Positions 4,664-33,744 of a stretch of DNA of 64,000 nt are shown piece after piece. The notes under the pieces were generated by a model. The model saw only the letters and a program-made list of their open reading frames with translations, was not told the DNA's origin and searched no databases. This DNA is from Alphaproteobacteria bacterium. GTDB taxonomy: Bacteria > Pseudomonadota > Alphaproteobacteria > Micropepsales > Micropepsaceae. A program made the position numbers and the translations under genes. The stretch's first letter is position 1. Every line of letters starts with the position of its first letter. The stretch spans positions 62,001 through 126,000 of the forward strand of contig JANXXU010000015.1 of NCBI GenBank assembly GCA_025350465.1. Direction: 5' to 3'.

Positions 4664-5947
4664 ATGCGCACCAATTTTTCGGCAACTCAACTCAACGATC
4701 CGGCCCTCGCCGCGGCCGAACATGAATTGCGGGCTTGCGTCCATTGCGGCATTTGCACCGCCACTTGTCCGACCTATGTGCTGCTTGGCGATGAACTCGA
4801 CGGTCCGCGCGGGCGCATTCAATTGATCCAAGGGATGCTGGAGAGCGGTGCGGCGCCGAGCGCGAAGGTGGTCACGCATATCGACCGCTGCTTGTCGTGC
4901 ATGGCGTGCGTCAGCGCGTGCCCTTCCGGCGTCAACTACCCGCGCCTGATCGACGAAGCACGCGCGCATATCGAGGAGACCTATAGGCGGCCTTGGCGAG
5001 ATGTCCTGCTTCGACGCGCGCTTGGGTTCGTCCTGCCGCGGCGATGGCTTTTGCGATGGGCGCTCACGACGGCGCGGGTAGCGGCGCGTTTCTCGTGGCT
5101 TGTTCCCGAGCCGGCGCAGGCCGCGTTGATCGTCGCCAACGGTTTGCCGCGACCGGCGCCGGCAAAGCATTTTGCGAAAACCGTTGCGGCGCAGGGCGTT
5201 CAAGAACGCCGCATCGCGTTGCATGCCGGCTGTGTCCAAGAAGTCATCGCGCCCAGCATTACAGCGGCCGCGATCCGCGTGCTGACGCGGTTCGGCGCGC
5301 AGGTCACGATCGTCGAAGGATCGGGCTGCTGCGGCTCGCTCAACCATCATTTGGGCGAGACAGCTGCCTTTGCGCGCCACGCCAACGCTCTCATCAAGGA
5401 CATTGGCGACGCCCCCTTTGACGCGATCGCGACGACGGCATCGGGATGCGGTGCGACCGTGCGCGACTACGGCTTCTTGCTGAAGGGCTCGAAGGTCGCA
5501 GCCCAGGCGAGTGAAATCGGCGCGAAGGTGCGTGATATCTGCGATGTGCTCCTGGATCTGCCGCTTGCTTCGCCGCATTCCGTGCCGAAGCTGCGCGTCG
5601 CTTATCATGCGGCATGCTCTCTGACACACGGCATGCGCCAGGATGCAGCTGCGAGTTCGATATTGACGAAGCTCGGGTTCGACGTCGTCACGCCCAGCGA
5701 CACCCAGTGCTGCGGTTCGGCGGGCGTCTACAACGTTCTGCAACCGGCTATCGCAGACGAATTGCAGGCGCGCAAGGCGCAAGCGCTCGCCGCCTTGAAT
5801 GCCGACGTCATCGTCACCGGCAATATCGGATGCTTGATGCAGATCGCGAGTGCAGTGCGCACGCCGGTCGTGCATGTCGTGGAGCTGATCGACTGGGCGA
5901 CGGGCGGGCCTCAGCCAGAAGCGCTGCGCATGCGGCTCAGCGTTTGA
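4664..5947 (+). CDS. glcF: Glycolate oxidase iron-sulfur subunit GlcF
   Basis: Electron-transfer subunit that links the flavin subunits to the respiratory chain. Two ferredoxin-type 4Fe-4S motifs are visible: CVHCGICTATCP (about residues 26-37) and CLSCMACVSACP (about 77-88). Two CCG domains follow, containing GSGCCGSLNHH and DTQCCGSAGVYN. At 427 residues it is slightly longer than the E. coli protein. It is the last gene of glcDEF and overlaps the convergent amine oxidase gene by 11 bases. No glcC-type regulator or malate synthase lies next to it. Confidence 0.94.
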   Translation: MRTNFSATQLNDPALAAAEHELRACVHCGICTATCPTYVLLGDELDGPRGRIQLIQGMLESGAAPSAKVVTHIDRCLSCMACVSACPSGVNYPRLIDEARAHIEETYRRPWRDVLLRRALGFVLPRRWLLRWALTTARVAARFSWLVPEPAQAALIVANGLPRPAPAKHFAKTVAAQGVQERRIALHAGCVQEVIAPSITAAAIRVLTRFGAQVTIVEGSGCCGSLNHHLGETAAFARHANALIKDIGDAPFDAIATTASGCGATVRDYGFLLKGSKVAAQASEIGAKVRDICDVLLDLPLASPHSVPKLRVAYHAACSLTHGMRQDAAASSILTKLGFDVVTPSDTQCCGSAGVYNVLQPAIADELQARKAQALAALNADVIVTGNIGCLMQIASAVRTPVVHVVELIDWATGGPQPEALRMRLSV

Positions 5948-24585: not shown

Positions 24586-24652
24586 AATTAAGGGGACGCT
24601 TTATATAACTTAGGCGAACTCTTGGCGGCGAAACAGATAAGTATAGTGTCCT
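24586..24652. repeat. REP-like repeat, copy 1
   Basis: A 67-base element starting AATTAAGGGGACGCTTTA and ending GTATAGTGTCCT. Its ends are imperfect inverted repeats (GGGGACGCT versus the complement of AGTGTCC). It matches copy 2 at 26178 at roughly four positions in five, in the same orientation. The pair brackets the TIR-FGE gene. Ends of this type resemble REP sequences mobilised by Y1 (RAYT) transposases, but no transposase is present in the window. Confidence 0.75.
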
Positions 24653-24795
24653 CGAAACTATTGCAGGAAGAGACCGCGCCAGTTCGCGCCTGTAAAGCCT
24701 CAATGAAGAGATGGGTGCGATGTCGCCCGCGACATAGGCTTTGAGGATTTGCGCCGGACGGCTATCCTTCGCGCCGGGGAAAGAGGCCTAGCCAC

Positions 24796-26160
24796 TTGCC
24801 GGACATCTTCATTTCTTATGCGCGCTCCGATCGCGCGCGCGTCGCGACGATTGCGGCCGCCTTTGCCGCAGAAGGGTTCGACGTTTGGTGGGATCCCAAG
24901 ATCGAGCCTGGCGAGACCTTTCGCGGCGGTATTGAGAAGGCGTTGACCGCGGCCAAGTGCGTCGTCGTCGCGTGGTCAAAGGATTCGGTCAAGCGCAATT
25001 GGGTCATCGAAGAGGCGCAAGAGGGTCTCGACCGCCAGGTGCTGGTTCCCATCCTGCTCGACGACGTCGTCGCGGAACTGCCGCGCGGCTTCAAGAGCGT
25101 TCAGGCCGCTGATCTTACGCGCTGGCGCGGTGGTCGCGACGATGCGAACTGGCAGATCGTCAAGGCGCGCGTCGCCGGACTGACGCAGCCGAACGGCGCG
25201 CTCGGTGCGCCCGCCGAGCTTGGTGTTCCCTCCGCCGCTTCATTTTTTGCCTCGCTCAAAAAGATACCTGCGCGCGTGGCCTTGGCGGCTTCGATGCTGC
25301 TGTTGCTCGGGGCGCTCGCGGCCGTCTATTTTTATCGTGCGGCGCCCACGCGCAGCGCCCAAGACCAAAGCGCAGCGGGCGCCGCCACCAAGACCTTCAC
25401 CGATTGCGCGCAGTGCCCCGAGATGGTGGAGATACCGGCGGGAACGTTTCTCATGGGCTCGCCGCCGAGCGAAGCGGGTCGCTTCCCCAACGAGGCGCCG
25501 CAACACAGCGTCACGCTGAGGGCTTTTGCCGTCGGCCGCTATGAGGTGACGTGGGACGAATGGAACGCGTGCGTCGCGGCGGGCAGTTGTCCCTCGGCCG
25601 ACGATTTGGGCTGGGGCGGGGGGCGCTTGCCGGTCATCAACGTCAGCTGGACCGACGTGCAAACCTATCTCGCGTGGCTCCGCCGCGTGACCGGCAAGGA
25701 CTATCGCTTGCTCACCGAAGCCGAATGGGAATACGCCGCGCGTGCCGGCACGACCAGCCGCTACAGTTTTGGCGACAGCGAGGCCGAGCTCTGCGCCTAC
25801 GCCAACGGCGCCGACCAATCGGCAAAGGCGAGTCATAGCGATTGGCAAGCCTCCAGTTGCTCGGACGGCTTTGTCCGCACCGCGCCCGTCGGCTCGCTCA
25901 AGCCCAACAAGTTCGGCCTCTACGACATGCATGGCAATGTTTGGGAATGGGTCCAGGATTGCTTCGCCGAGTCCTATGATGGCGCAGCAGTGGACGGCGC
26001 GGCGCAGACGGCGGGCGATTGCTCGATCCGCACGTTGCGCGGCGGCGCCTGGTACTCAACGCCGAGTGTCCTGCGCTCCGCCAGCCGCGGCAAGGCGGCG
26101 TTGAACACGCGCAGCTTCGTCTTCGGCTTCCGGCTCGCGCGCACCCTTACCGGCAATTGA
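24796..26160 (+). CDS. TIR domain / membrane segment / FGE-sulfatase-fold fusion protein
   Basis: A 454-residue fusion. Residues 1-129 form a TIR domain (DIFISYARSDRARV) with the Glu72 position of NAD-cleaving TIRs in NWVIEEA. A single membrane segment spans about 162-180. Residues 205-452 form an FGE-sulfatase/SUMF1-like fold (VEIPAGTFLMGS, LTEAEWEYAARAGT, DMHGNVWEWVQD, GFRLA). The catalytic Cys pair of true formylglycine-generating enzymes is absent: the segment GGAWYSTPSVLRSASRG has Tyr/Ser and Val there. The fold is therefore probably a ligand-binding, C-type-lectin-like module. The start is TTG with AAAGAGG upstream; no internal ATG would keep the TIR domain. It stands alone, bracketed by repeats. 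A signalling or defence role is inference. Confidence 0.88.
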   Translation: MPDIFISYARSDRARVATIAAAFAAEGFDVWWDPKIEPGETFRGGIEKALTAAKCVVVAWSKDSVKRNWVIEEAQEGLDRQVLVPILLDDVVAELPRGFKSVQAADLTRWRGGRDDANWQIVKARVAGLTQPNGALGAPAELGVPSAASFFASLKKIPARVALAASMLLLLGALAAVYFYRAAPTRSAQDQSAAGAATKTFTDCAQCPEMVEIPAGTFLMGSPPSEAGRFPNEAPQHSVTLRAFAVGRYEVTWDEWNACVAAGSCPSADDLGWGGGRLPVINVSWTDVQTYLAWLRRVTGKDYRLLTEAEWEYAARAGTTSRYSFGDSEAELCAYANGADQSAKASHSDWQASSCSDGFVRTAPVGSLKPNKFGLYDMHGNVWEWVQDCFAESYDGAAVDGAAQTAGDCSIRTLRGGAWYSTPSVLRSASRGKAALNTRSFVFGFRLARTLTGN

Positions 26161-26177
26161 CGTTCGAGGCTCTAAGG

Positions 26178-26244
26178 AATTAAGGGGACGCTTTACATGA
26201 CTTGGCGCGAACTCTTGACGGCGCAGAGATAAATATAGTGTCCC
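26178..26244. repeat. REP-like repeat, copy 2
   Basis: Second copy of the element at 24586, same orientation, starting 17 bases after the TIR-FGE stop. It begins AATTAAGGGGACGCTTTA and ends AATATAGTGTCCC, so its two ends pair better than those of copy 1 (GGGGACGCT against AGTGTCCC). The recombinase remnant lies 12 bases further right. Reading leftward, the remnant's frame runs straight into this repeat, so the repeat marks the breakpoint. Confidence 0.75.
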
Positions 26245-26256
26245 TGAATCTTCTAG

Positions 26257-26466
26257 CTTCGAGACGACACCTTTGGCCTTGAGCTCCAGGCGCAGTTTGT
26301 CGGTCGATCTTAGTTCCGTGTACCGCCTGAAGATCTGGCGGATCGTCTCGGCCTCGATGGGGTTGGGCACAAGCTTATGTTGGGCGAGGTCGTAGCCCGT
26401 CGGGATGGTGCCGCCCGTCCACATGCCCTTCTTGCGCGAGGCCGAGACTTTGTCGCGGATCTCCAT
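26257..26466 (-). pseudogene. Serine recombinase fragment
   Basis: About 70 residues of the central Recombinase domain of a large serine recombinase. MEIRDKVSASRKKGMWTGG, then TGYDLAQHKLVPNPIEAE and IRQIFRRYTEL match the pattern that follows the catalytic resolvase domain. The N-terminal catalytic domain is missing: a stop codon lies three codons upstream. The C-terminus is cut off at the REP-like repeat. It is a dead remnant of an integrase or phage/transposon recombinase, evidence of past mobile DNA at this spot. Confidence 0.8.
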
Positions 26467-31864: not shown

Positions 31865-33376
31865 TCAAGCTGCGTCGATGCGCTCGTCGAGGCCCATCTC
31901 GCGCAGCTTGCGATAGAGCGTCGAGCGGCCGATGCCGAGACGGCGGGCCACTTCCGACATGTGACCTTCGTATTTGCCGATCGCGAAGCGGATGAGTTCG
32001 TGCTCGATCTCTTCGAGCTTGCGCAGATGGCCGTCGATTCCCATGACGCTGATGCCGGCGTTGCGCGCCGTGGCGGCGCCGGGTTCAAGGGCCGCCGGCG
32101 CCGGCGGCGGTGAAACGGCGACGAACGGCCGGGACGGCATCTCGCCCGGCAGCGGCTCGTCCTCAAGATCGAAGGCGGTGCGGACTTCTATGCCGAGCTG
32201 GGTGGCGATTTGCGGGAAATCACCGATATGCAGGCAGTCACCGTCGCACAAGACGACCGCCCGAAAGACAGTGTTTTCGAGCTGACGAATGTTGCCGGGC
32301 CAGTTGAAGCCCTTGAGCATGTCGAGCGCGTCGGCGTCGATGCCGACTACTTTTTTGTTCTCCTCAACCGCGAAGCGACGGATGAAGTGGGCGACGAGAC
32401 TTGGGATGTCTTCGCTCCGTTCGCGTAACGGCGGCAGGGTGATGGGAAAAACGTTCAGCCGATAGAACAAGTCCTCGCGGAATTTCCCTTCCGCCACTTG
32501 CTGCGCGAGGTTGCGGTTGGTCGCCGAGACCAAGCGGATGTCGACCTTGACGGGGCGCTTGGCACCGACCGGATCGACTTCGCCTTCTTGAATGGCGCGC
32601 AGCAACTTCACTTGCATGTCGAGGCGAAGCTCGCCGATCTCGTCGAGAAACAGCGTGCCGCCGGTCGCTTCCTGGAATTTGCCGATATGGCGGTCGATGG
32701 CGCCGGTGAAGGCGCCCCTCTCGTGACCGAACAAAATGCTCTCGATCAGCGTGTCGGGAATGGCACCGCAATTGACCGCGACGAAAGGCTTTCCGGCGCG
32801 GTCCGAGCCGCCTTGAATGGCGCGCGCCAAGACTTCCTTGCCGACACCGCTTTCGCCTTCGATGAGAATGGGAATGTTCGATTGGGCGGCACGCTCGGCC
32901 ATGCGCACGACCTGGCGCATGGGGCCGCTCTCGGCGACCAGATCGGCGAAGGAAAGGCGGTTGTCTTGCGTCTTCTTCAGTCGCTGGATTTCGCCGTTGA
33001 GCGCCTTCAACTTCAGCGCATTCTGGATCGAGACCTGAAAGCGTTCGGGGCTTGCGGGCTTGACCAAGAAATCGTCCGCGCCGGCGCGCATCGCGGCGAC
33101 CGCCGTATCGACGCCGCCTTGCGCAGTCAGGACGATCACCGGGAGCGAGGGATGGGTCGGGCGCAGCTGGTTCAGCACCGCAAGGCCGTCCATTCCGGGC
33201 ATGATCAGGTCGAGCAGGATGAGACTGACGTTCGCCCCTTTGGGGCTGCGCAAGAGGTCCAGGGCCTCGCCACCGGAGGCCGCCGTCAGGGTCTGGAACC
33301 CGGCGCGTTCCGCCATGGCCTGCATCAACCGGCGCTGGGCAGGATCATCGTCGACGACAAGGGTCGTATGCGTCAT
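31865..33376 (-). CDS. NtrC-type sigma-54-dependent response regulator
   Basis: A 503-residue activator. The REC domain (1-120) has the phospho-acceptor Asp56 (LILLDLIMPGMDG) and Lys106 (FLVKP). The AAA+ domain has Walker A GESGVGK (174-180), the sigma-54 contact loop GAFTGA (221-226) and Walker B TLFLDEIG. A Pro/Ala-rich linker leads to a Fis-type HTH (YEGHMSEVARRLGIGRSTLYRKLREMG). The start at 33376 gives MTHTTLVVDDD; an upstream frame would add 55 spurious residues. No histidine kinase is adjacent, so it is an orphan. It should drive sigma-54 promoters elsewhere. Confidence 0.95.
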   Translation of the reverse strand: MTHTTLVVDDDPAQRRLMQAMAERAGFQTLTAASGGEALDLLRSPKGANVSLILLDLIMPGMDGLAVLNQLRPTHPSLPVIVLTAQGGVDTAVAAMRAGADDFLVKPASPERFQVSIQNALKLKALNGEIQRLKKTQDNRLSFADLVAESGPMRQVVRMAERAAQSNIPILIEGESGVGKEVLARAIQGGSDRAGKPFVAVNCGAIPDTLIESILFGHERGAFTGAIDRHIGKFQEATGGTLFLDEIGELRLDMQVKLLRAIQEGEVDPVGAKRPVKVDIRLVSATNRNLAQQVAEGKFREDLFYRLNVFPITLPPLRERSEDIPSLVAHFIRRFAVEENKKVVGIDADALDMLKGFNWPGNIRQLENTVFRAVVLCDGDCLHIGDFPQIATQLGIEVRTAFDLEDEPLPGEMPSRPFVAVSPPPAPAALEPGAATARNAGISVMGIDGHLRKLEEIEHELIRFAIGKYEGHMSEVARRLGIGRSTLYRKLREMGLDERIDAA

Positions 33377-33744
33377 GGGGGTCCGCGTGCTCCGGGGCGT
33401 GCTGAAACGGGTCGGAGGATTGCGGGTGGCGGGTAAAGGGCGGGTATAGCCTGTCTCAGATTGGGTTGTTCCCGCAGCGGCGCTCGCTCGACCGTTGCGG
33501 CCGGGCGACAGCCTGCAACCGTTCTGCGTCCGCAACGCCACATTCGCTTGAAAGTGGCAGGCGTTAATGGGATTTCATTAAGGCTTTTTCAACGTCCGGC
33601 TCGCGGGGGTTGCTCTGCGGTAGCAGCGGGCAAAGTGGGGGCGTCGGATTAAGCGACAGAGGGGGTAAGCGCGGCGCGTAGGGTCCATCGGGGCCTTATG
33701 CGCCGCGGCTGTTTCAACGCCACTGTGTCCGTGGAGATCGACGA
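33377..33744. other. Divergent spacer with TTAATG/CATTAA dyad
   Basis: A 368-base gap between the NtrC-type regulator (leftward) and a lipoprotein gene (rightward). The only notable structure is a perfect six-base dyad TTAATG-GGATTT-CATTAA at 33564-33581, AT-rich against the surrounding GC-rich DNA and suitable as an operator or -10 region. No convincing reading frame or RNA gene was seen. Confidence 0.4.

Follow-up and report, generated by a model that had tools for sequence, protein, structure and literature searches.

The gene analysed here lies in a 64,000-nucleotide stretch of an alphaproteobacterial contig, referred to as the window, and encodes a single protein that joins a TIR domain, one transmembrane (TM) helix and a domain with the fold of formylglycine-generating enzyme (FGE). 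The purine-rich stretch GGGGAAAGAGG stands just 5' of its TTG start. Pfam assigns residues 206-449 of the window protein to FGE-sulfatase (E 1.8e-58), and the one hydrophobic segment in the protein peaks at residues 161-179 with a Kyte-Doolittle value of 2.33. An AlphaFold2 model built from 35 sequences (mean pLDDT 85.7) contains two confident domains with a helix at residues 159-181 between them; its low-confidence stretches are residues 136-147 and 178-193. Since the open reading frame, the Pfam domains, the hydropathy peak and the model agree, the order proposed in an earlier note on this DNA (TIR, one membrane helix, FGE fold) is real, and the structure prediction that the note had suggested as a check returned two well-folded domains and the helix. 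Coordinates are given in Table 1.

Table 1. Features of the TIR-TM-FGE gene and its flanks, with the related retroelement locus.
Feature	Position	Strand	Details and basis
Left direct repeat, ~75 bp	24586..24660	+	Pairwise alignment, pattern search
TIR-TM-FGE gene	24796..26160	+	454 aa, TTG start; open reading frame and translation, Pfam, structure model
TIR domain, residues 4-115	24805..25140	+	Pfam TIR_2, E 1e-22; PDB matches 3h16, 7uxr, 8g83
E73 codon	25012..25014	+	Aligns with the catalytic Glu of TIR NADases; phmmer to PdTIR/AbTIR, alignment of TIR relatives
Single transmembrane helix, about residues 159-181	25270..25338	+	Hydropathy 2.33; helix in model
FGE-fold domain, about residues 204-449	25405..26142	+	Pfam, fold comparison, Cys-pair co-occurrence
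Predicted ligand-contact segment, residues 420-442	26053..26121	+	Template/variable repeat (TR/VR) codon mapping, entropy test
Truncated serine-recombinase-like frame	26056-26466	-	Pfam Recombinase, 20.1 bits, sub-threshold against a cut-off of 21.1
Right direct repeat, ~75 bp	26178..26252	+	Pairwise alignment, pattern search
L068 retroelement locus	L068:4009-10254		One template, three FGE targets (STAND-FGE, TIR-FGE, third gene)

The gene is flanked by near-identical repeats of about 75 bp, which occur in three copies in the genome, the third of them diverged (73%) and located elsewhere. The repeat ends resemble an imperfect inverted repeat (GGGGACGCTTTAT ... ATATAGTGTCC), and the repeat may be a small mobile element or a REP-like one. 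The recombinase-like frame on the opposite strand overlaps the 3' end of the gene, extends past it and looks like a decayed mobile-element remnant. Acquisition of the TIR-TM-FGE gene by mobile DNA is plausible. An empty-site comparison within the genus found only the upstream amine oxidase conserved in the relative G010, without synteny. No relative was found in viral contigs scanned with the TIR domain, and none of the plasmid records covers as much as 80% of the window protein.

According to Pfam, the nine neighbouring open reading frames look metabolic or regulatory, and the immediate neighbours belong to families other than that of PvdP, with which PvdO would share a pyoverdine gene cluster. 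PADLOC found no convincing known defence system among ten neighbours, and a defence island around the gene is without PADLOC support. The match of the window protein to ThsB is weak (16 bits) and none of these ten neighbours hits ThsA, which does not make the gene a Thoeris system. No vWA, MoxR or VMAP partner was found near the gene in either the nine frames searched with Pfam or the ten searched with PADLOC. The AAA region of a frame at 31865-33541 on the minus strand matches RtcR/PspF-type regulator models at 376 bits in PADLOC and is likely an ordinary sigma-54 activator; neither this regulator nor the match of the amine oxidase to a desaturase model was taken as a defence gene.

Fold comparison places the window TIR domain with known TIR structures at Z about 15. 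The active-site Glu of PdTIR and AbTIR, four residues after a Trp (W+4), corresponds to E73 in the window protein, i.e. W69 + 4, in both the phmmer match and the alignment of TIR relatives. The catalytic-type Glu claimed in the earlier note is thus present, but its numbering as Glu72 was wrong, position 72 being unconserved in these alignments. Five TIR-kinase proteins from the same bacterial family (L195, L196, L198, L199, L201) carry Val instead of the catalytic Glu, which suggests that their TIR domains are non-catalytic.

The fold closest to the FGE part is that of PvdO (Z 35.3, 1.8 Å over 242 residues), followed by TvpA (2y3c), a variable protein of Treponema denticola diversified by a diversity-generating retroelement (DGR), at Z 30.8; true FGE structures come third. 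In PDB and NCBIfam searches, too, the outer domain matches PvdO best (Pseudomonas aeruginosa, 5hha; 41-46% identity), although the NCBIfam PvdO equivalog score of 222.9 bits falls short of the cut-off of 500. PvdO acts in the periplasm (PMC6206403). In the alignment to human FGE, C336 and C341 become S421 and L426 in the window protein, so the copper-binding pair is indeed replaced, as had been noted. Its absence is, however, no special trait: because Cys stands in both columns in just 2 of the roughly 154 relatives aligned (152/154 are without the pair) and PvdO, the nearest solved structure, likewise lacks the FGE cysteines, the absence is ordinary for this branch. We therefore dropped cysteine loss as a distinguishing feature.

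Nine cysteines occur in the window protein, one in the TIR domain and eight in the FGE part, and across about 154 relatives the latter co-occur as four pairs, 204-207 (phi 0.97), 259-265 (0.98), 333-355 (0.98) and 389-409 (0.94), with phi about 0 for unrelated cross pairs such as 259/333. Such pairs are commoner where a hydrophobic segment lies upstream (Mann-Whitney p 2e-4, uncorrected for ancestry) and are absent from L068, L070, L094 and L097, the TIR-FGE homologues that show no clear TM helix; in each of the four TIR-TM-FGE proteins 6-10 Cys follow the helix and 0-1 precede it. The relatives used here and in the entropy test below share ancestry, and the p-values of both are approximate for that reason. 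That the two members of each pair are gained and lost together argues for an FGE domain that is probably disulphide-bonded and periplasmic. The helix of the window protein has balanced flanking charges (3 positive and 1 negative to either side), and three relatives favour an N-in orientation; it is from hydropathy and the cysteine patterns that we infer the outside location of the FGE domain.

A related locus provides a link between this type of protein and retroelement diversification. In L068, from a gammaproteobacterial Methylococcaceae MAG, bAvd and a reverse transcriptase (RT) precede the gene for a soluble TIR-FGE protein (L068:5959-7113). Three FGE genes, including the TIR-FGE gene and a STAND-FGE gene, have 3' ends that match the template at 5625-5755, and 42 of 43 template/variable mismatches fall at template adenines. 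By this defining signature the L068 element is a DGR, and its TIR-FGE gene is a genuine DGR target. Next to the element are a gene for SIR2-TIR and one for a DNA methylase. DGR-type RTs also occur at the FGE loci L104, L127, L098 and L203, and in the template/variable pairs of L104 and L127 93-95% of the mismatches are adenine-specific.

The genome of the window (G000, 98.3% complete) contains no RVT_1 match and no relative of the L068 RT. Nor does it contain a template copy for the 3' end of the gene, the only hit being to another FGE gene (88 bases, 78%), and no template repeat lies within the window. A DGR acting on the window gene was rejected, given the missing RT and the missing template, and this TIR-TM-FGE copy is therefore apparently fixed. 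The suggestion of a DGR in the earlier note, with RT and template repeat as its check, fails for the organism's own genome but holds for the L068 homologue.

The variable codons of L068 map without gaps to window residues 420, 421, 422, 424, 425, 430, 432-435, 437, 438 and 440-442. The segment of residues 420-442, which the earlier note had quoted, spans the positions of human FGE Cys336 and Cys341 (421 and 426), and both this mapping and the TvpA match give the window FGE fold a C-terminal variable-type segment, as in DGR variable proteins. Among 34-35 close homologues, mean entropy is 3.31 at the mapped positions and 1.54 in the rest of the FGE domain (p about 2e-9), and the genomes of these homologues are nearly all without a DGR-type RT (2 of the 39 checked have one). 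The ratio of this excess is 2.22 for fused homologues, 1.95 for single-domain homologues and 1.56 for a conserved orthologue group; because the control groups show a smaller excess too, patch variability is not unique to TIR fusions and does not decide between a sensor and an enzyme. The variability fits, and so supports, a predicted binding patch. A DGR homologue varied at the same residues puts a name to that predicted patch, with which ligand hunting and pocket mutagenesis become practical.

The layout is not confined to this genome. TIR-TM-FGE proteins were found in two other alphaproteobacterial genomes, G181 (L046, 42% identity to the window protein over its length) and G797, which encodes both L204, with intact TIR motifs, and the paralogue L206, whose TIR is degenerate and which is perhaps a regulatory or decoy partner. 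Related FGE domains stand C-terminal to caspase, trypsin-like, ankyrin, kinase-TM, TIR-STAND-TM and TIR-multiTM modules, these N-terminal modules being assigned by eye from sequence rather than by Pfam. At L149 an FGE gene is directly followed by a TIR-TM-repeat gene, and the window's genome has two other TIR genes, one TIR-TM-YbjN (of the 'sensory transduction regulator' family) and one TIR-TM-unknown. Taken as a set, the TIR and FGE proteins look like mix-and-match receptors.

Because of the architecture, the fold, the catalytic-type Glu, the cysteine pairing, the recurrence of the layout and the DGR homologue varied at the same patch, we read the gene as encoding, on its own, a transmembrane TIR receptor that probably serves defence or regulated cell death, with a probability of roughly 0.6. 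The ligand-sensing outer domain and inner TIR of the earlier note gain partial support from the cysteine pairs, from the recurrence of TIR-TM-FGE, from the attachment of related FGE domains to other signalling modules and from the L068 DGR acting at the matching surface. The periplasmic location, ligand binding, clustering, NAD cleavage and role in defence or cell death that we infer would fit together as follows. The C-terminal FGE (C-type-lectin-like) domain would lie in the periplasm, held by four disulphides and without the FGE copper site, and residues 420-442 would serve as a patch for ligand binding where an enzyme has its active site. One helix would cross the inner membrane and leave the N-terminal TIR domain in the cytoplasm. 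An outside ligand, which may be a phage, toxin, envelope or foreign-cell component, would bind the 420-442 patch and cluster the receptors, and the TIR domains would then assemble as in SpbK, a bacterial TIR NADase from which this assembly and clustering mechanism is taken (PMC12847820). Assembly would make E73 competent, and NAD+ would be cut, leading to cell arrest or to an NAD-derived signal.

Other readings differ in what they make of the two ends of the protein. The FGE part could be a membrane-tethered periplasmic PvdO-like enzyme, the TIR serving only as an anchor or scaffold or reporting catalytic flux; PvdO, the top match in sequence and structure, is itself an oxidation factor, so the window domain may have kept some enzymatic role. 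We consider the tethered enzyme improbable: the NCBIfam score lies well below the PvdO cut-off, the Glu of the PvdO DWGEPP segment is S421 in the window protein, and no part of the domain varies more than the would-be active-site patch. The protein could also be a receptor whose TIR does not cut NAD and acts instead through protein-protein contact, recruiting an adaptor in the manner of TLR/MyD88. The Val of the five related TIR-kinase proteins and the degenerate TIR of L206 beside intact L204 would suit such a mode, but W69 and E73 are both kept in the window protein, L204 and L070, and L068 keeps the Glu with Phe replacing Trp, so we give it a small chance as well.

A further reading leaves the receptor in place and changes its purpose: it would report stress, the state of the cell envelope or contact with kin, unconnected with phage defence. 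The absence of defence genes among the neighbours is consistent with this, as is the company of the TIR-TM-YbjN and second TIR-TM proteins in the genome; against it, predicted conflict systems contain related FGE/CLec fusions (PMC7159879, PMC10907252), and the neighbours of the L068 gene include SIR2-TIR and DNA methylase genes. We regard it as possible but rather unlikely, and retain the transmembrane TIR receptor for defence or cell death as the preferred reading.

Parts of this arrangement are already known. In conflict systems the FGS domain always lies C-terminal to other domains (PMC7159879), FGE/CLec domains have been described C-terminal to conflict-system effectors including TIR (PMC7159879, PMC10907252, PMC7517822), with published DGR targets combining CLec and TIR (PMC10907252, PMC7517822), and caspase-FGE proteins have been published too (PMC3501461). 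We found no literature combining an FGE-sulfatase and a TIR domain by name, and the searchable literature yielded no example of the alphaproteobacterial TIR-TM-FGE form, which spans the membrane and is apparently not diversified.

Compared with SUMF1, the formylglycine-generating enzyme itself, the outer domain has the same fold (Z 28-29) but lacks both copper-binding cysteines. PvdO, periplasmic and likewise without these cysteines, is a stand-alone pyoverdine maturation factor, whereas the window FGE domain is joined to a TM helix and a TIR. Prokaryotic caspase-FGE proteins (PMC3501461) also place a cell-death-type effector N-terminal to the FGE domain, with a caspase where the window protein has its TIR. 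The DGR-diversified CLec/FGE sensors (Thiohalocapsa DGR targets and cyanobacterial variable proteins; PMC10907252, PMC7517822) and the FGS of ternary systems (PMC7159879) similarly carry a C-terminal FGE/CLec domain on a signalling or effector domain including TIR, and the former have the same fold as the window protein, as TvpA illustrates. The window system differs from them as a single gene with one TM helix and a periplasmic-type disulphide pattern, in a genome without RT or template repeat and with no vWA, MoxR or STAND partner seen nearby. With the NADases PdTIR (3h16) and AbTIR (8g83) it has the TIR fold and the W+4 Glu in common; in contrast to these and to SpbK, its TIR is predicted to be membrane-anchored with an outside sensor, and its NADase activity is putative.

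Most studied bacterial TIR immune proteins sense intracellular events. If the receptor reading is true, a lectin-like sensor held by disulphides on the outside would let bacteria trigger TIR signalling by signals met before entry. We tentatively propose that transmembrane TIR immune receptors form a class in bacteria, with an outside ligand domain, one helix and an inside TIR NADase, in which the binding patch sits where the FGE active centre would be and is diversified by a retroelement in related systems. Such a class would be functionally like the Toll-type receptors of animals, but with the domain order reversed in the bacterial proteins.
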